From NCBI GenBank assembly GCA_011800155.1, contig CM022370.1, positions 310,001 to 374,000 of the forward strand: a stretch of 64,000 bases of DNA. Direction: 5' to 3'. Shown here one piece after another: positions 26,820 through 52,578 of the stretch (the stretch's first letter is position 1; each line of letters begins with the position of its first letter). The notes beneath the pieces were generated by a model. It had not been told where the DNA came from and did no database searches. It saw only the letters and a list, made by a program, of their open reading frames with translations. The stretch is from Flammulina velutipes (lineage: Eukaryota; Basidiomycota; Agaricomycetes; Agaricales; Physalacriaceae). The position numbers and the translations under genes are program-made.

Positions 26820-28175
26820 TTACGAACGCGTAGTGTTGGGAATAACATCATAACAGCAGTATGATATCATGTAATCTGGAAACAAGGCAGAATACTGGCC
26901 TCCCAACGAATCATGCTCATGAAGCCGCACATTCCCAGTTGGCACTGCGAACCTATACAGCCAAGTAAATCAGCATAGAGAAAACATTCCAGATTTCAGA
27001 TATCCACATTTTCGTGTCATGACAATTCCGGAGGGCCGGGATAAAAGGAGGATACATCTTCTGCTGCATAGCACGCTCCCAATCTACGCCTCTGAACCAA
27101 GTATGCACCATGACATCCCGGGCGCCACCACGGTGCCTACTCCCCAGTCGAGTCCCCGGGTCCGTCAATAACAAGGACCAGATCATGTCCATCGCGTTAC
27201 CATTCATGACGCCCCGAGGCCACTGTATAGCACTTGGCCCCTCCAGTAAAACCCGTTGGCACAGCTCAGTCTTCCGTACGTACGGCTGGAGACCTGTGAG
27301 CATCACGAACATTAGTATCCCGAAGGAGTACCAGTCGATAGATGTAGTGTATTCCGGGATACGTCCGAAGAGCTCGGGCGCCATGTACTCTATGGTGCCA
27401 CCGAGGTGGCAAGACACGCCGTGCTGTGTGGCGAGACCGAAGTCTGATAGTTTTATATGCCCGTTGGCGGCAATGATGATATTGGAAGGCTTGATGTCGC
27501 GGTGGAGGATACCTTCAGAGTGGATGTATGATAGCGCGAGGACGATCTCAATGGCGTAGAAACGGGCAGTGATTTCGAAGATACGCTGTAATTTCGTCAG
27601 TACTGGGTTCCAATCGGAGGAGTGTGTGAAGGCCAACCTTGTTCATGCTGATTAGTGTACCTAGGTCACCGCCTGGGATAAACTCCAGCACGATGTAAAG
27701 ATTCTCCACGTCTTGGAACGCGCCGAATGTCTTGGACACGAACGGCGATCGCATCTTCTTCAGTAGGTGTAATTCAGTATTGACATTACCTGTTTGATTC
27801 TCGGCAACGAGTGTTCGTTTCTTCATAACCTTAATCGCGAATGGCTGACCCGTTCGACGAGATCTCGCTATAGAGATGTTGGTTATTGCGGTACGATGTG
27901 AAGAAGGTGGATCGACCTTTGAATACGATGGCAAAACCTCCCTTCCCAATTACCCTCTCGAAGGTGATGACGCATCGGCATAACCAGAGTGGGACTTCTA
28001 TCTTGCACGTCTGTAATGACCTCTGGAAATCAGAGAGAACAACATGAAGGGGTTTATATGATGGAGGGAGTGTTACTTCACCGACAGGTCCATATGTGTA
28101 CGCGGCAGCAGGGCGTAGTTGTTGATGTGGCGCGGCTACGTTGTATGTCTGCAGCATGTGTTGAATGTGGTTCAT
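26820..28175 (-). CDS. AGC-like Ser/Thr protein kinase (kinase 1)
   Basis: Minus-strand gene with ATG 28175, introns near 27918-27868, 27638-27585 and 27010-26951, and TAA at 26822-26820. Motifs are intact: GKGGFAIVFKG (glycine loop), FAIKVMKKR (ATP lysine), GILHRDIKPSN (catalytic Asp), LSDFGLA (DFG) and EYMAPE. The C-lobe ends with TWFRGVDW, as in AGC kinases, and the last exon adds a tail of about 40 residues. It lacks PH, C1 or other regulatory domains. It is related to, but less similar than, the pair at 28761 and 49323. Confidence 0.8.
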
Positions 28176-28494: not shown

Positions 28495-28611
28495 TTCAAG
28501 TTCGTAATCTATCGTTCCATCGCCCCCTTAAGGCGAAGAGATCAGAGCCACCGAATGATTGACACCGAAAGGATAGCTAATGTTTGTGTCAGTGTTGGGT
28601 GGACGAAACAG
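28495..28611 (-). pseudogene. Relic of the 5' end of an OTT_1508-type deaminase gene
   Basis: Read on the minus strand, this stretch aligns with the first 35-40 codons of the deaminase gene at 50834, both following a kinase gene at a similar distance. The initiator codon is CTG instead of ATG, the frame is interrupted by TAA at 28530-28528, and similarity fades around 28500. Shared elements include FRPP versus FCPP, and VALIS in both. No catalytic part of the deaminase survives. Confidence 0.6.
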
Positions 28612-28760
28612 GACGGTAACATGCCACGACTTGTTGCTTGATCGGACCAGTAGCAGGCTACCACAGTGAGTACAAAAAATGCATTCATGCGAGAAGAGTA
28701 CGAGGAAATTAACGGGAACGGGATACTAGTACAGAATGGGAATGGCATGGCAGAAGTGAT

Positions 28761-30133
28761 CTAATAAGGCTTTGCGTCAGGAATAGAAGAAGCACAACAC
28801 TCTGCTTGTCGAAAGACCGGGAACAAGTGATAATACTGGTCGTGGAGTTCCCCAGTGGTATGAAGGTTGACACTAGGAGCTCCGGCGAACCTAAAGAAGA
28901 ATCTAAATCAGCACCAAGCAGATATTCGAAGATTGTGAGCACCTACATTCGAGTATCATGCTCATCTTCCAGTCGAGGGATGAATGGAGGTGTCACTTCC
29001 AAGCGCGCAACACTCTGCCAGTGCACATCTCTGAACCAGGGATGTGACATGACATCCCAAGCGCCACGACGGCTCTTGCTTCCCATCCGCGCCTCTTTGT
29101 CTGTCCACAACAATCCCGAGATCAAGTTTACCAAGGTGTTACTGAATGTGCGCTCCGGCCATTGAATGGCTATAGGGCCCAGCTCCATGACGCGTCTCCA
29201 CATTTCAGTGCCCCCGATGTACGGCGCCTCACCCGTGAGCATGTTGTATATCACTATACCTAGGGCATACCAATCGACGGTTTGGGTGACCCTAACATGA
29301 CGCTTGAACTGTTCGGGTGCCATGTACTCTGGTGTGCCAGCTTGGTATGGCGAAGTGTCGTTTAGCCTGGCGAGACCAAAGTCGGAGAGTTTGATGTGCC
29401 CGTCGCGCGTAATGAGGATGTTGGCTGGCTTGATATCATGGTGGGTGATACCTTGTGAGTGGATGTACGATATAGCGAGGATGATCTCGGAGGCGTAGAA
29501 ACGGGTTGTGCTCTCTGAGAACCCCTGTAATTCGGTCAGTGATCGGTCTTGACTGGGTTAGAACGAGAAAGCATACTGTGTTCAACGCGATGAGAGTCTC
29601 TAAGTCGCCGCCTGAGAGAAATTCCATCGCAATGTAGAGATTCTCTATGTCTTGGAATGCGTCAGATGCTTTGCATACGAAAGGTGAGCGCATGTTCAAT
29701 AGCAGTCGTGCTTCGCGGTCGATATTCTCTACCTGTCGCCGGGCAACCGCCATCGATTTCTTCATGATCTTCACCGCATATGACTGCCCCGTTTGAATGG
29801 ACCGTGCTATAAAGAAGGTTAGCGAAAGGCAGTATAGAGAATAACATGCACACCTTTGACGACGACTCCGAATCCCCCACGCCCAATCATCGGTCCGAAG
29901 CCAACGAGGCATCGACACAACCCATCCCTAGCAGATGGATAAGTTGACAGGTAGCGGCTGCATTGCGACGGCGACGACCGTTTCAGTCCCGGAGGAGCAA
30001 CGGGAGGATCCAGGTATTCCGGAGGAGGAAATAGTCCGAGAGAGTGATCCTCGATATGAGCAACGATGGGGACCTGGAGATGGAATGAGGCGTGGTATTT
30101 AAGGTTGTGCATAACCCGGTTCAAGTCAGCCAT
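28761..30133 (-). CDS. AGC-like Ser/Thr protein kinase (kinase 2)
   Basis: Start ATG 30133 in an ACCACCATGG context; the same context and promoter precede the paralogue at 49323, which decides the start. Introns lie near 29853-29809, 29580-29525 and 28943-28890; the stop TAG is at 28763-28761. Motifs: GRGGFGVVVKG, YAVKIMKKS (lysine), ITHHDIKPAN (HHD variant with catalytic Asp kept), LSDFGLA and EYMAPEQF. The last exon has a conserved tail ending FRQAECCASS..KPY. No extra domains. Probably active; substrates unknown. Confidence 0.8.
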
Positions 30134-31368
30134 GGTGGTCGACATCGCTTGTGGCAGATACAGATGCTCAGCTATAGCTTTTAAAAGACCTGTACTATGT
30201 ACGGGGGTAGCATTGTTGAGCAATAAACGCGTGAAGGACAATGAGAGGCCACAAGGATGGTAATTATCCGTTTCCTTTCGGCGAGATTTCCAGACAATGG
30301 CGTTGGCCCAGGACCGTGGCCAGGATCTGGATTTACTTTTAGATTACCCGCTAGCTGTGCGTGTCATGATGGTATATCTGGTGTAGGTGAATGAACGTCA
30401 GCCTATCGACAACAACAAGTGCAAAAGCACGAACGAGGAATTGGAGCGATAACTTGAAGGAGAGCATGCGACTGACTCCAGCTACATGTTTTCTGGTTCG
30501 ATTTACGACCTCAGCGACCAGGACCCCGCGCCCAAGATGAGACAGTAACATCTCTAAGACTTGACTGCTCGTAAATCGATGACAGTGGTCCAATGCTAGT
30601 CGTAGTCGTATTGTGTAAGGTGAGTTATCGGGAATCGGTCCCCTAGTACTTACAGGGTTAGAAAAGACACCAACTAAAGCTTGTGACGAATCTGGTTGAG
30701 ACGGAATGGAACAGAGACCATTCTAGCGTCCGGACTACAACGGTAGCCGTAGCAGTCGTTGACGAAGATCAAAGAAGTGCGGCATCGACCATCCAAGAGG
30801 TTATCGTTCAGAGTGGAGGAGAAGCACGTCGAACGGGTTAGAGGGTACCGACTGAGTATGGCTAGTAGGCTGATAGGATTCCCTGGGTATCCACGGCCCC
30901 CCTGAAGCGTAGAGTGCAATGGGCATTGAACATAGGTCCGGGATTTCCAGACGATTTGAAGCTATCTTCCCACTTGTATCGCCGTGATGTAAATTCCGTA
31001 GGGTATGTAACGGAGGCACCCGTCCTCGTAAGTGGGTCGCTCGTCGTTGTTGGAGGTCGGCTGAATGGTGAGCAGAACGTTAGTGATGGTCAAGAGGAAA
31101 ATGGGAAACGTGACCTGATATGTCTTGATTTTCGACCATCAACTTTCAAATTCTCTGCCAACACTCGTATTTCTGAGCGGCTGGATATATTTCTTCTCAC
31201 AGGACACGGCCCTATGGAAAAGTCGAAAATTTCGATGTCGGACATACAACGTATGCCTTTTAGTCTTCCCAAACAGAAGGGCAAACATACAGTGACAATA
31301 ATGGGCCAGCATCTAAACGAAGTTCGCGCAAGCTATTAGACGATAGAATCAGCCCTCTGGAGACAATC
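30134..31368. other. Mostly non-coding stretch with one open frame of uncertain status
   Basis: The first 110 bp contain the promoter of kinase 2. From about 30914 to 31339 a plus-strand frame is open for 141 codons (containing DLICLDFRPSTFKFSANTR), but it begins without an ATG and has no convincing donor at its end. It may be an exon of the gene that follows at 31369 or a relic. Confidence 0.35.
30178..30187 (-). promoter_or_regulatory. TATA-like element shared by kinases 2 and 3
   Basis: CTTTTAAAAG on the minus strand, about 45-55 bp before the ATG of kinase 2. The surrounding 100 bp match the promoter of kinase 3 (TTTTAAA at 49270). Confidence 0.6.
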
Positions 31369-34983: not shown

Positions 34984-35617
34984 TCACTGCCGTATACGCA
35001 TCAGTAAAATCTCAATATAGAAGTGCTAGAAGACATACAACAATCTCAATATCCATCGTCCAATCCTCCTGCTCGAGATTCTCCGCATTCGTCCCAAAGT
35101 CCAAATACCACTTCGGCTCCCTCCCAAACCCCTCAAAAATCTCCCTCATCTTCCTCATCGGCTCATGTAGAGAATCTCCTTCACGGACGGTATAATTGCT
35201 CACGAAAGCATACGCAAAAGTCCCATCGGGCGTCGTATAACAAGTGTACAACTCAACCGAATGCCCACAAGCCTCCGAGAGGTATACGCGGAGAGGGGTC
35301 CACATCCTCACCCTGTCATCACGTTTATCGTTCCTGTCCTTATCCAACAAGTCTTTGCGTTTCGCAAAGTCGAGCCATTGGTCTAGCTCAAAGGCAACTC
35401 CCAATACAAAAACGGGTGGGAAGAGACCCAATTCAGGAGTGGGCAAGTAATGATCAGGAAAATCGTTCGGTTTCCAAGGATTGTTGGCTTTCATGTAGGT
35501 CATATTGAGAGTCTGGCGATAGTTAATGTAGTTGAGATCACCACAAATGGCCCAGGACTGACTAACCTTATTACATTCTTTAATCCAACGTTCATTTTTG
35601 GAAAGCTGTAATTCCAT
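34984..35617 (-). CDS. Lineage-specific hypothetical protein (35/48 family, copy 1)
   Basis: ATG 35617, intron 35566-35514 (donor GTTAGT), long exon to 35039, intron 35038-34987, and then a TGA at 34986-34984 that forms the whole last exon. The product has 175 residues: QTLNMTYMKAN-like sequence is followed by NPWKPNDFPDHYLP, LYLSEACGHSVELYTC and GREPKWYLDFGTNAEN. If the last intron is retained the protein gains eight residues. The gene at 48022-48749 is a clear paralogue with the same exon structure, including the stop-only exon. No domain recognised; no signal peptide. Confidence 0.65.
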
Positions 35618-35693
35618 GATACACAGGATGGTGGTGGTAAGTTGTAATTCCAATTATTCGCAACGTGTGCGCCACACTTCAATCACGCGATAT

Positions 35694-42194: not shown

Positions 42195-42794
42195 CTACCA
42201 GGATTGGCCACCAGGCTGGAGGAGAAGGATGAGATATGGCGATGGACCAAACGAGACGGAATTGACTGACCCCTGCAGCTTCGGCCTCGCGCTTCCAGGA
42301 TTGGCCCGGAGGTCCACGCGCATCAAGCTAAAACCACATTTGAGCACCATCGCCGATACGAAAAGTATCATCACGTACGTTATCTTCGCGCTTCCATGAT
42401 TGACCACCACCACGTGCCGAGACCTACGAGGGACGATTAGAGTCAGTTTGGAGAGAAGCCGAGTGTACCAACTTCATTCGATTCGCGAGCCTACAGACGA
42501 GGGACGAGGGTCAGTGCCGGGAGATAAGGGCCCGAAGGTTCATGTCAGGCGTACATTAAGCTCTTCCCGCTTCCATGACTGGCCACCGCCAGCAGTCTTA
42601 ATGAAATGTTTAGAAGTTGTTTCCATAGACGGTCCGGAAGAAGAACCCACCGGTTCTCGTACTTGTACAGGCTGAGAAAGGGTCCAAGTCAGATCAAGTC
42701 AGTCCCGAGGAGAATAGAAGCCACGCACGATGACCGCAGCAGCGGTAAGTGTGAACGCGGCGGAAGCCAGAGTGACGAGTATTCCAAAGCGCAT
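42195..42794 (-). CDS. Secreted repeat-peptide precursor with Kex2-type sites, alpha-factor-like architecture
   Basis: Six exons on the minus strand join in frame, all introns in phase 0: 42794-42729, 42671-42555, 42490-42473, 42423-42379, 42327-42271 and 42215-42195. The 107-residue product begins with a signal peptide (MRFGILVTLASAAFTLTAAA). A pro-region of about 30 residues is followed by four copies of a short peptide: AGGGQSW-KREE, ARGGGQSW-KRED, ARGPPGQSW-KREAEAA and GPGGQSW at the very C-terminus. Lys-Arg after each of the first three Trp residues is a Kex2 site; the third is followed by Glu-Ala-Glu-Ala, the classical substrate of Ste13-type dipeptidyl aminopeptidase. The Arg before the GGG/GPP copies could set their N-termini. 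Predicted mature peptides end in GQSW. The layout is that of KEX2-processed repeat proteins and of ascomycete alpha-factor precursors; receptor and function are unknown. Confidence 0.75.
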
Positions 42795-48021: not shown

Positions 48022-48749
48022 ATGCCGTCGGCTAGTTCCTCTTTGAGACGACGATCATCCATGGGCTCAGATATCATGAACGCTGCTCACCCCCACGATA
48101 TTTCTTCTCTCTCGAACGAAGTTGGCGAGCTCAATCTTTCTAAGAATGCAGCAAAGATCAAAGAATTCAACAAGGCCAGTCCTTGTTTCAAGTTGTTTAT
48201 AGCGAGCTCAACTTGCGCCAGACTCTCAATATGACTTCCATGAAAGCCAACGGACCTTGGAAACCAAACGACTTTCCTAGTCATTACCTGCCTTGCCCCG
48301 AAATAGGACTCCTGCCGCCTGTCTTCGTACTGGGAGTTGTACTCGACTACGAACAGTGGCTACAATTTGCAGAGCAGAAACAGTTGATAAAGAACGACCG
48401 ACAACGAAGCAACTCAGTCGACATCATGTATTCTATCAATCTTTACTTGTCGGAGGCTTGTGGGCACTCCGTTCGGCTTTACACATGCCACCCGACGGAT
48501 GATGGAATGTTCGCCTTCACTTTCGAGTCCAATTATACACTGACTGAAGACGGTCCTCCACTCCAAGAGCCGCTCGCGAAAATGAGAAAGATTTTCGCGG
48601 AATATGGGAGAGAGCCCAAGTGGTACTTGGACTTTGGGACGAATGCGGAGAATTTCGACCGGGAGGACTGGACCATTGATATCGAAATAATCGTATGTGG
48701 CACTTTTTATGTCGGGTCTTTTGAAAGTTGACGCCTCTGTGTTTAGTGA
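48022..48749 (+). CDS. Lineage-specific hypothetical protein (35/48 family, copy 2)
   Basis: Exons 48022-48174, 48222-48692 and a stop-only exon 48747-48749 give 208 residues. Compared with the copy at 34984-35617, the same segments are present: NLSKN..IKEFNK before the first intron, then QTLNMTSMKANGPWKPNDF-like sequence, LYLSEACGHSVRLYTC and GREPKWYLDFGTNAEN. The intron between AAG and ACT begins with GCCAGT instead of GTTAGT, so it is either a GC-AG intron or a damaged donor. Met 48061 is an alternative start. No signal peptide, no known domain. Confidence 0.6.
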
Positions 48750-49269
48750 GGCTAGTCACCATCCTCATTTAATACTCTCAATCCACGTTAGACGTCACCT
48801 GCCACGTCGACCTTTTTATTGCGGACGCTCGAACGGCTACTGTACTGTCCTGCATCTCAAGCAGCTCAGGTCAGACACCGGAGTCAGTGTATTTTCTTGG
48901 CCTTGTGCGATGACACAACTTACGCGCAAACCGGATACCTCGACTTGCACGCAATCAAGCCTTGAGAATGGTTTTGCTCTTGATCTCATCTTGGGGCGCA
49001 ATATTCTGGTCGCCGGAGTCTTAAATCAAGCTAGAAATCACGGAGATAGTCTGGCGCCTCGCTGGTACTTCTCGCTGCCGATAAGCCGATGCTCATCTGC
49101 AGCAGGCATTCTCCTTGGATATGCACCGCGGGCAGATGATTTTCGACACAATGGGCCAGCGGCATTGTCTGGAAGTCCGAATCAGGAAACAGAAGAAAGG
49201 AATTCCCACCCCCATTGTCGTTGACGCGTCTATTCGACGAACAATAGCGCGCTCGTACATGGCCAGGTC

Positions 49270-49276
49270 TTTTAAA
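49270..49276 (+). promoter_or_regulatory. TATA-like element of kinase 3
   Basis: TTTTAAA lies about 50 bp before ATG 49323 within a 110-bp segment conserved with the kinase 2 promoter. Confidence 0.6.
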
Positions 49277-49322
49277 CGCTACACCTGGGCATCAGTATCT
49301 TCCACAAGCGACCTCGACCACC

Positions 49323-50677
49323 ATGGATGACATACTAGCAAGATACAACGGACCATTTGATCTCTGGCTCTCCGATGATACTCAAGATGAGGAGCCCCGT
49401 GTCGAACTACTTCCTTCTCCACGATACGAGGCTCCTCCTCTCACTCCTCCTGGTCCGAAGCGTTCGTTATTGCTGCCGTACAGTGGCAGCCTTGCAACTG
49501 CACCTCCTGATAGGATGGAGTTATGTCGATGCCTCATTGAATTTGGACCGATAATTGGTCGTGGGGCTTTTGGGTTTGTCGTCAAAGGTGTGTGGTTTAT
49601 TCTCTCCAAATTTTCTCTCTGCTAAACACTTCTATAGCGCGGTCAGGGTGGGGAGGTCAAGCTTTCGCCATGAAGATCATGAAGAAAAAGAGGGTGGTTG
49701 CTCAGCAACAGATAGATAACATCGATCGCGAAGCACGACTGCTTATGAACATGCAGTCACCTTTTGTGTGCAAGGCATTTGACGCGTTCCAAGACATAGA
49801 GAATATCTATATCGCCATGGAATTTCTCCCAGGCGGCGACCTAAGCGCTCTCATCAAAGTATTTCAGGTGGGTCCGCTGTTTTTTTACCCCGATGAAAAC
49901 CAATTACTGACCAGACAACAGAGGCTCTCAGAGATAGAAACCCGCTTCTACGCAGTCGAGCTCATCGTCGCTATATCGTACATCCACTCGCTAGGTATCA
50001 CTCACCACGATATCAAGCCTGCCAACATCCTCCTGACGCGCGACGGCCACATCAAGCTATCCGACTTTGGTCTCGCCAGGATAAACGACATTTCGCCATT
50101 GCGATGTGGCACAACACCGTTTATGGCGCCCGAGCAATTCAAATGCAATGCTCCGGTCACCATGTCCGCCGATTGGTACGCCCTCGGTGTAGTGATGTAT
50201 AATATGCTCGCTGGTGATGTGCCCTACACCGGGGGCACTGATATGTGGAGTGGCGCCATGCAACAGGGCCCGATAGCCACAGACATCCAATGGCCGGCGC
50301 ACATATTCTTGAATGCCACCTTGGTGAACTTGATCACGGCATTATTGTGGACAGACCCAGACACGCGATTGGGAAGCCGCGGGGGTTGGGATGTCATGTC
50401 ACATTCTTGGTTCGCCGATATACAATGGGAGAGTGTTGATCGACTGGACATGACACCTCCATTCATTCCTCGGGTATTCGATGATCATGATACTGGGATG
50501 TGAGTGTTTACAACTGTTTGAATATTTGCTCGAGGCTAATGGAGATTCTTCTTTAGGTTCGCCGGAGCTCATGCTGTTAAGTTCCATGCGCCTGAGGCAC
50601 TATACGACCAATATTATCGATTCTTCCCGGCCTTTCGACAAGCAGAGTGCAGTGCTTCTTTCCTAGTGCCTTATTAG
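49323..50677 (+). CDS. AGC-like Ser/Thr protein kinase (kinase 3)
   Basis: ATG 49323 in an ACCACCATGG context. Introns lie near 49588-49638, 49867-49921 and 50502-50555; the stop TAG is at 50675-50677. Motifs: GRGAFGFVVKG, FAMKIMKKKR (lysine), ITHHDIKPAN (HHD variant), LSDFGLA, FMAPEQF and SWFADIQW. The last exon encodes MFAGAHAVKFHAPEALYDQY and FRQAECSASF. It is the closest paralogue of kinase 2: gene body, promoter and 3' flank all align. It stands directly upstream of the deaminase gene on the same strand, 156 bp apart, which suggests an ancestral kinase-deaminase unit. Confidence 0.8.
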
Positions 50678-50833
50678 CTAAATCATTGTGTACTCGGACT
50701 ATCCCTTACTCCTCGATTCTTGTATTCTTCTGGCATGAATGCAGTTTTTGTATACGTCGGTGCTTGTGGTAGTCTGTAGGTCCGACTAGGTCCGATCGAG
50801 AAGTGACAGAAAAAGTCACAGTATGTTACCGTC

Positions 50834-52578
50834 ATGTTTTGTCCACCCACCACGAAGTCTGCTTTCGATGCAAATAATCCTGACCATCTGGTAGCTCTGA
50901 TATCTGTGCTTGAGGGGGAGGATAGAAAAACGGAATACGAAGTACCGCAAGATCCCAAGTCCTCGGACAAAAGTGGTGCGATTCTTGATAGTTTGGCACA
51001 TCTTGCTATCTGTCGCGAGTCCGGTCAAACTATTTCCGTTGGTGTGGTTCAAGTTGGAAAGACACTCGAGCTTGTTGTTGCGGAAAACGGGCCTGTCGAC
51101 CCGGACGTCATCTCATTCTTAGTGGCCTTCACCACATCGCTCTCCGACATTCGTCGACGATTGGCATCTCCCATCGTCAAAGGATCTATATCCGCTCTAT
51201 CAGAAGGCTCTCCTCCCTCTTCAACTTCTGACTCTACCTCAACCGACAACCAACAACTTGCTAAAGAGCTACACGCACTGAAGAGCATAGCATTGCTGCA
51301 TAACCTCCCCCAAATACGCAAACGCTTCCTCAAAAACTATCCTCATTTCCAATCCTTCTTCGACCACTTCGAACAGAACGCCCATCATGATCAGATGGAG
51401 GGCATGTCCGATATGCTCAACTCGCTCGAGGAATTACTAAGGATTCTGGGAATGGCATTGAACAGGCTTACTTTAACCGAAGGCGACGCCGGTGCACTGC
51501 GAATGGTCCTATTAATCATCCAATCAATCGACCAGCACTGTGAGAATGATTCAAATATGCTCTATCATTGCACCAAGTATATCAAAGGTTCGTCTTCCCT
51601 GGACCCAGGATCACATTAATATCTTATCCAGACACGCCGTCGTTGCAGCACAAATTCAACGTTACGCATTGGTTGAAGAAGTTGACTAGTAACCACATTC
51701 ATCTTATCCGTATCGCGCACCTGGCCACTTCAAGGTATATGACGGATTTTCTGGTGTCTCCACCGAGTATCAGGCCCTTGGACAACGAGATGATATCGAG
51801 TTCTTTCTCTATCACTCGCAAAGCTTTTGTCGAGCTCTTGAAGAACATACCGTGGACTCCTCACGAGGACAAAGGCTTGAGCGAGGACGAGATCTTCGAC
51901 ACAATGAGCGCCAACTTCAAGCAGACACATCCCCCAAGCGTCAACGAGAAACTTGCCAAAAGAGGAACGCGTATACATTGTAAGTCAAACTTCGTTCGTC
52001 AATGATCCTTCTCATATTTCCTAGGCTCGGATGATGAAATACAGTTCGACGTCAAGACAGCCATTCACGCCGAATGCGTAGTGCTTGAACACCTGAAAAT
52101 CCGACAAGCTGCTATGCCTCTTATTGGAGTCTCAAAGCTGTCGTGTACCGCTTGCCACCTCTATCACAACCTCCTCCCCTTTCCTTTCCGCACTACAGGC
52201 ACCCACTCACTATTCCCATCCACCTGGACATGCCCGACAGACGTCCAGGAAACGCGTCTAGACCTGTGTAAGCTGCTACTAGCAAAGCTGGAGGAACGGG
52301 CTCGGCGTTTGGAAACGAAAATACTGCGAGAGCGGTATGAACAAACTCCGGAATATGCTAGTGAACGTACGTCCTTTTTTCCTGTCGTACAGTGTGAGTT
52401 TTACTCATGAGCCCGCAAAGAGGCGGAGTCACGCGCTAGGAATGAGATTATCATGCGGTGGGCGTTGCACGCTAAGATCGAGGCGGCAGAGGCAGAAGCA
52501 AATCGTCGACGAGAGGAGATAGAGCAAACGGCATCCGCGCCACCGATCTTGCAAGATTCGTCGAACGAACCCATCTGA
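50834..52578 (+). CDS. OTT_1508-type nucleic-acid deaminase-like protein
   Basis: Exons 50834-51587, 51632-51979, 52025-52366 and 52421-52578 join in frame to about 533 residues. The N-terminal 350 residues are mostly helical without a known domain. The C-terminal part has the deaminase zinc site: IHAECVVLEHL (HAE: zinc His and catalytic Glu) and GVSKLSCTACHLYHN (C-x2-C zinc cysteines), spaced and worded as in the fungal OTT_1508-like family, followed by SLFPSTWTCP. A coiled, acidic helix ends the protein. The family is related to bacterial deaminase toxins and is expanded in some fungi; the substrate (DNA, RNA or free nucleotide) is unknown. No signal peptide. Confidence 0.8.

Follow-up and report, generated by a model that had tools for sequence, protein, structure and literature searches.

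A putative KEX2-processed repeat protein gene with peptides ending in GQSW, and its 13-copy sister gene, in a basidiomycete genome

In yeast, alpha-factor arises from a secreted multi-copy precursor that is cut into short peptides, and the ascomycete alpha-pheromone precursors combine a signal, Lys-Arg sites, EAEA spacers and repeated cores. Le Marquer 2019 described basidiomycete KEX2-processed repeat proteins (KEPs) with a clear Ste13 signature and proposed hormone or pheromone roles for them (PMC6339444), and Umemura 2020 gave a figure of 5.30 KEPs per basidiomycete strain (PMC7329392). In the portions of Vogt 2022 that concern such peptides, Trp-ending products of KEPs were detected in Coprinopsis, Lentinula and Pleurotus, BLAST yielded many more basidiomycete KEPs with Ste13 motifs and a C-terminal Trp, and three kex2 genes were reported in Coprinopsis (PMC9769878). 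According to the same portions, GPPAPSW and SGVAADW were both found in the mushrooms themselves, the former stemming from a Coprinopsis KEP, in whose non-repeated end it lies, and the latter from a Pleurotus KEP that carries Ste13 motifs; QYKAPSW was seen upon expression of a KEP in Pichia (PMC9769878). A precursor plan with a Trp-ending core is already published for basidiomycetes, on the strength of the parts of these papers cited here and with mass spectrometry as evidence for some of the peptides, and the novelty of a further case is limited (PMC6339444, PMC9769878).

We analysed a window of 64,000 nucleotides (C3:310001-374000) and searched the whole genome to which it belongs (38,124,235 bases, or 38.1 Mb, in 23 contigs). 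A gene on the minus strand of 42195-42794 in the window, with its ATG at 42794 and a TAG stop at 42195-42197, is very probably a KEP, whose product would be processed to short peptides sharing the end GQSW. The best splice model that preserves the cores has six exons (66, 117, 18, 45, 57 and 21 nt) and encodes 107 amino acids in the order MRFGILVTLASAAFTLTAAAVI, pro-region, TAGGGQSW-KR, EELNARESNEVSARGGGQSW-KR, EDNLDARGPPGQSW-KR and EAEAAGPGGQSW-stop. The lengths of all six exons are multiples of 3, and every intron is in phase 0. In the frame of this model, three GQSW copies are followed by Lys-Arg, one of them then by Glu-Ala-Glu-Ala, and the fourth stands directly at the stop, which is what the preliminary description of this DNA had read from its letters.

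All features of the gene lie on the minus strand. Exon 1 (42729..42794) contains the start codon and a hydrophobic segment resembling a signal peptide, with a mean Kyte-Doolittle value of up to 2.1 over 11 residues. Intron 1 (42672..42728; 57 nt, GTGCGT...CTCAG, phase 0) falls at the end of this segment, and exon 2 (42555..42671) encodes the pro-region and copy 1 (GGGQSW-KR-EELN), with GQSWKR at 42568..42584 (C3:352568-352584). After intron 2 (42491..42554; 64 nt, GTACGC...TGTAG) comes exon 3 (42473..42490), an 18-nt segment encoding ARESNE that is the least certain exon of the model and whose omission leaves the reading frame intact. It is followed by intron 3 (42424..42472; 49 nt, GTTGGT...CGTAG) and by exon 4 (42379..42423), which encodes copy 2 (VSARGGGQSW-KR-EDN) with GQSWKR at 42389..42405 (C3:352389-352405). 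Beyond intron 4 (42328..42378; 51 nt, GTACGT...TTTAG), exon 5 (42271..42327) encodes copy 3 (LDARGPPGQSW-KR-EAEA-AG); here GQSWKR lies at 42290..42306 (C3:352290-352306) and the Ste13-type EAEA spacer at 42277..42288. The spacers after copies 1 and 2 begin with EELN and EDNL and contain no X-Ala/X-Pro run. Intron 5 (42216..42270; 55 nt, GTCAGT...TCCAG) precedes exon 6 (42195..42215), which encodes copy 4 as PGGQSW-stop, so placed that a C-terminal cut is not required. Two donors in the gene are weak, namely GTTGGT at exon 3 and GTCAGT in the last intron.

The gene model was compared with all in-frame GT-AG paths having introns of 42-139 nt and at most two introns per segment, ranked by ad hoc scores untrained on the species. 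Between copies 1 and 2 the six-exon path ranked first of five, and between copies 3 and 4 it was the sole path. Between copies 2 and 3 it ranked second of two, and the top path destroys the core of copy 3. From the ATG to copy 1 it ranked seventh among 33 paths. Of the six with higher scores, four disrupt or skip the core of copy 1 by splicing, and two leave it intact but lose most of the pro-region to a second intron. Because of these ranks, the repeats are well supported as being in frame in the predicted gene, while the exact pro-region and spacers are less so. The six-exon structure with introns all in phase 0, proposed from the sequence in the preliminary description, is borne out in that it gives an in-frame model of 107 amino acids whose repeat segments are backed by the enumeration.

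In the window, a 17-base degenerate pattern for GQSWKR matched three sites on the minus strand and none on the plus strand, and 200 dinucleotide shuffles gave 0.0 matches on average. Throughout the genome it gave 13 matches at two loci only, three in the window gene and 10 on C2 within 420 bases, and the reversed control pattern gave no match in the whole genome. The C2 locus holds a sister gene on the plus strand (C2:1503799-1504351), with two exons encoding 167 amino acids and 13 QSW copies, and it is situated upstream of a gene with MCM domains. Its first exon is 54 nt long and signal-like, and the start of both precursors is hydrophobic; the sole intron of the sister gene (49 nt) is in phase 0 where the signal segment ends, a position and phase that it has in common with intron 1 of the window gene. 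All 13 QSW copies lie on its second exon, separated by spacers of 0 to 8 residues (EAEA, DAEA, EPEA, EAEAEA, EPEAEAEA or none). A dibasic site and an X-Ala/X-Pro spacer precede 11 of the 13 copies; copy 13 is preceded by RR with no spacer, and copy 1 by Val-Pro near the end of the signal. Compared with this gene, the window gene has no Ste13 dipeptides in two of its three spacers and carries its repeats on separate exons.

Three exact-pattern searches of the whole genome for Trp-[KR]R-[DE][AP] units revealed no further repeat locus, these patterns being blind to copies split by introns or followed by other spacers. The single-unit pattern had 13 matches, 11 on C2, one in the window gene and one at C7:2138287, which is isolated with a stop on either side and was taken as a chance match. 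Two spaced double patterns also gave 13 matches each, in both cases with 11 on C2, and both miss the window gene because its copies lie on separate exons. Their stray matches on C7 and C13 (one pattern) and on C6 (the other) were rejected since the second Trp codon is out of frame, and that on C1 since a stop intervenes; the reversed controls yielded two matches for the pattern with the C7 and C13 strays and none for the pattern with the C6 and C1 strays. A weak match (E 2.6) at C5:1414631 was likewise rejected as a further locus, as it has no repeat in any frame.

Selective constraint on the core was evaluated from the 16 GQSWKR codon blocks that are complete in the two genes; copy 4 of the window gene, which ends at the stop, was excluded. 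Over the 120 pairs there were 338 silent and 53 replacement differences (pS 0.751, pN 0.031), figures that are descriptive only, since the pairs share history and are not independent. The same caution applies to the comparison between the two loci (pS 0.716 and pN 0.020 over 39 pairs). The three complete copies of the window gene differ by 8 silent and 0 replacement changes summed over their three pairs, and the C-terminal Trp of the core is present in all 17 copies across the two genes. This wide silent divergence beside a nearly constant peptide points, at the sequence level, to strong selection on the GQSW core of both genes.

A protein search with the sister protein, with scoring confined to the 7,993 candidates that had most words in common with it, gave nine matches with E no higher than 1, of which three exceed 0.1. 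One NCBI protein, P0003 (139 aa, E 1.9e-9), contains five GQSWKR, and its predicted products are AGQSW once and GNGQSW four times. It apparently comes from another genome and is not a copy from the present assembly, because the genome-wide GQSWKR search shows no third locus. The preliminary description had made conservation of the GQSW-KR pattern in relatives a test of its reading, and the pattern is kept both in the 13-copy sister gene and in P0003. At least one Trp-preceded dibasic site was found in all nine matches and at least three in eight of them, in a search whose query, being rich in Trp-Lys-Arg, favours such proteins. The named matches are from Termitomyces, Amanita thiersii and Zasmidium, the last an ascomycete, and have Trp-ending cores other than GQSW. 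The full-length window precursor gave 58 candidates in the protein collection, none with E up to 10.

The plan of both genes resembles that of the Trp-ending agaricomycete KEPs (Coprinopsis cinerea 490115 and 447393, Pleurotus 1091723), which, as described in the relevant portions of Vogt 2022, are secreted and have dibasic cuts and Trp ends; the X-Ala/X-Pro motifs of the genes studied here are found in Coprinopsis 490115 and the Pleurotus KEP as well (PMC9769878). Copy 3, read as GPPGQSW, shares five of seven residues with GPPAPSW of Coprinopsis (PMC9769878). As far as those portions extend, our genes differ from the Trp-ending agaricomycete KEPs in the GQSW core, in the five-residue product of the sister gene and in the placement of the window repeats on separate exons. 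The KEPs discussed in the body of Le Marquer 2019 have the same plan as here, canonical for alpha-pheromones except for the peptide, and they come from other species and have other cores; a GQSW case may stand in figure 7 or the supplement of that paper (PMC6339444). In a word search of the literature, GQSW occurred in four papers and AGQSW in five, none of them fungal by title, and GGQSW in no paper, though the supplements of KEP papers may still list GQSW. Alpha-factor-like processing in a basidiomycete, which the preliminary description had put forward as something new, therefore holds for the Kex2 signals and, at one of three sites, for the Ste13 signal, whereas its novelty does not survive comparison with the KEPs in the parts of the two papers considered (PMC6339444, PMC9769878).

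We infer expression, secretion, cleavage and use of the GQSW peptides from the sequence. The precursor would enter the secretory pathway through its N-terminal signal, a Kex2-type protease in the Golgi would cut after Lys-Arg, and a Kex1-type carboxypeptidase would take off the basic residues to leave a free C-terminal Trp. Where X-Ala/X-Pro dipeptides are present after the cut, a Ste13-type dipeptidyl aminopeptidase would trim them. When these steps were imitated in silico on the sister protein (cuts after KR/RR, N-terminal X-Ala/X-Pro trimming and an assumed signal cut after residue 20), all 13 QSW-ending fragments came down to exactly five residues, with five GGQSW, six AGQSW, one RGQSW and one GSQSW as the predicted pentapeptides. 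The sister gene would accordingly supply GGQSW and AGQSW in bulk. The window gene would give AGPGGQSW once EAEA is removed, together with longer fragments from copies 1 to 3; under the strict trimming rule its last copy alone reaches a short peptide, two of the three inner spacers having no Ste13 dipeptides. GGGQSW (copy 2) and GPPGQSW (copy 3) would arise only with an extra cut after the single Arg that precedes them, and products ending at a single Arg were noted upon expression of KEPs in Pichia, in the part of Vogt 2022 that deals with this system (PMC9769878). Genome searches gave 29 pieces with the P_proprotein domain (proprotein convertase P domain), 15 of them on C5, and one DPPIV_N locus in two pieces. 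The number of P_proprotein pieces looks high beside the three kex2 genes given for Coprinopsis in the portion of the paper cited, pieces not being equal to genes (PMC9769878).

Both proteins have the repeat pattern by which KEPs are recognised, with near-identical cores between dibasic sites (three flanked by KR plus one at the stop in the window protein, and 13 in the sister) and a Ste13 signature that is present in the sister gene and, at one of three KR sites, in part in the window gene. The same architecture is common to the precursors of dikaritins such as ustiloxin and phomopsin, and at least 11 pieces of UstYa (DUF3328), the type of oxidase that would cyclise the cores, were listed in the genome. 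Dikaritin cores usually contain Tyr, which the core here does not, and the EAEA spacers favour a linear product. None of the UstYa pieces listed lies on C2 or beside either precursor gene, and the nearest of them, at 3.33 Mb of C3, is some 3 Mb away from the window gene, whereas a mean distance of 3.09 genes between precursor and DUF3328 is given in the part of Umemura 2020 used here (PMC7329392). The same source does place a DUF3328 gene close to 17 of the 76 KEPs that resemble putative basidiomycete pheromones, so linearity is no rule of the group (PMC7329392). We regard a dikaritin-type precursor as improbable, and because no UstYa match lies near either gene, linear, secreted GQSW peptides are the most likely products on present sequence. 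Some ascomycete pheromones end in Gln-x-Cys-Trp, which the GQSW end resembles, and the signal, KR sites and EAEA spacers would suit a true mating pheromone of the ascomycete alpha type, acquired by descent or transfer. The core nevertheless has no Cys, and neither protein matched an alpha-mating-factor family of Pfam at E up to 1 (MF_alpha, MF_alpha_N, as named in PMC7329392). A profile search of the genome for the STE2 family found no match, a weak negative given that the control genomes likewise gave none, against 25 STE3 pieces, 23 of them above the Pfam cut-off. This explanation is the least credible of those considered. The CaaX box of basidiomycete mating pheromones is also absent, the window protein ending in GQSW-stop and the sister protein in QHQT-stop.

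The repeats might instead be structural, as in a surface protein of the repellent or fibril kind, of which Ustilago Rep1 is an example, or in a protein built of Trp-Gly repeats, and the sister protein does score above the cut-off of the Pfam model RDM3_C (52.4 bits against 35; residues 24-159, C2:1503902-1504348). We take this model to represent a Trp-repeat protein of plants. The match spans the repeated GQSW units and ignores the KR sites and the signal, and it was set aside as probably false and driven by repeat composition; in NCBIfam the window protein had no match and the sister protein one, far below the cut-off. Pentapeptides would be too short as a scaffold, and Rep1 has no Ste13 signature according to the section of Le Marquer 2019 that treats it (PMC6339444), so that a structural role seems very improbable. 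Somewhat less improbable, though still unlikely, is that the window gene, a relative of the one on C2, is in decay and yields no product. It has fewer copies, two spacers from which EAEA is missing and two weak donors, but its three complete cores show only silent differences (8 against 0), all six exons are in frame, and the last copy ends exactly before the stop. As to the use of the peptides from these putative KEPs, a signalling role, raised in the preliminary description, is plausible, and our first, tentative guess, held at somewhat short of even chances, is that they serve the fungus itself as an autocrine or paracrine signal. Second to it, and possible but rather unlikely, is that the targets of the peptides are not the producer but other organisms, such as competitors, bacteria or animals. 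Six kep knockouts of Coprinopsis had no phenotype in axenic growth and the authors favoured this view, while the synthetic peptides assayed showed no antibacterial activity, as reported in the portions of that study used here (PMC9769878). That the sister gene repeats a very short core 13 times is as expected for a bulk product, yet the near constancy of the core over 16 copies suits a specific binding partner no less well. A more elaborate version of signalling, and a doubtful one, is a two-gene autocrine system of physalacriaceous mushrooms, in which the sister gene would provide AGQSW and GGQSW in bulk, the window gene would provide variants extended at the N-terminus, exon skipping possibly setting how many and which of them are made, and the receptor would lie outside the STE2 and STE3 families.

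Several other observations were made in the window and the genome. Two diverged, inverted duplications have their copies on opposite sides of the peptide gene, 28592-30310 with 49152-50853 (72% identity) and 35033-35524 with 48210-48698 (70% identity), and a third pairs 27072-27758 with 29011-29697 (67% identity). Matches to a protein-kinase domain fell at 26956-27642 and at 49541-50500, and the frame at 35015-35653 had no match in Pfam. A carnosine N-methyltransferase exon in the window is 96% identical to an ENA protein, followed, among the best 120 of 860 matches, by proteins of Armillaria, Guyanagaster and Cylindrobasidium at 60-62%, genera that we take to be Physalacriaceae. The Fve-family gene in the genome shows 13 differences over 110 aligned residues and one gap relative to the FIP-Fve chain 1osy, presumably a Flammulina protein. 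Together these similarities suggest a mushroom of the Physalacriaceae, perhaps close to Flammulina. STE3-type receptor pieces are located on C8, C13, C5 and C1, with two C13 loci about 6 kb apart and several along C8. UstYa genes lie at C5:413779-429284, C5:698749-699347, C1:3436231-3437652, C1:4241965-4242377 and C3:3326891-3327278; at some of these loci neighbouring pieces are on opposite strands and may mark dikaritin-type clusters with other precursors.

Basidiomycetes mate by other chemistry, and what use they make of peptides of the alpha-factor type is called open in the parts of Le Marquer 2019 and Vogt 2022 that address it (PMC6339444, PMC9769878). For this question the present genome is a tidy test case, with GQSWKR at two loci only, one core shared between them, and exact pentapeptides predicted that can be synthesised.
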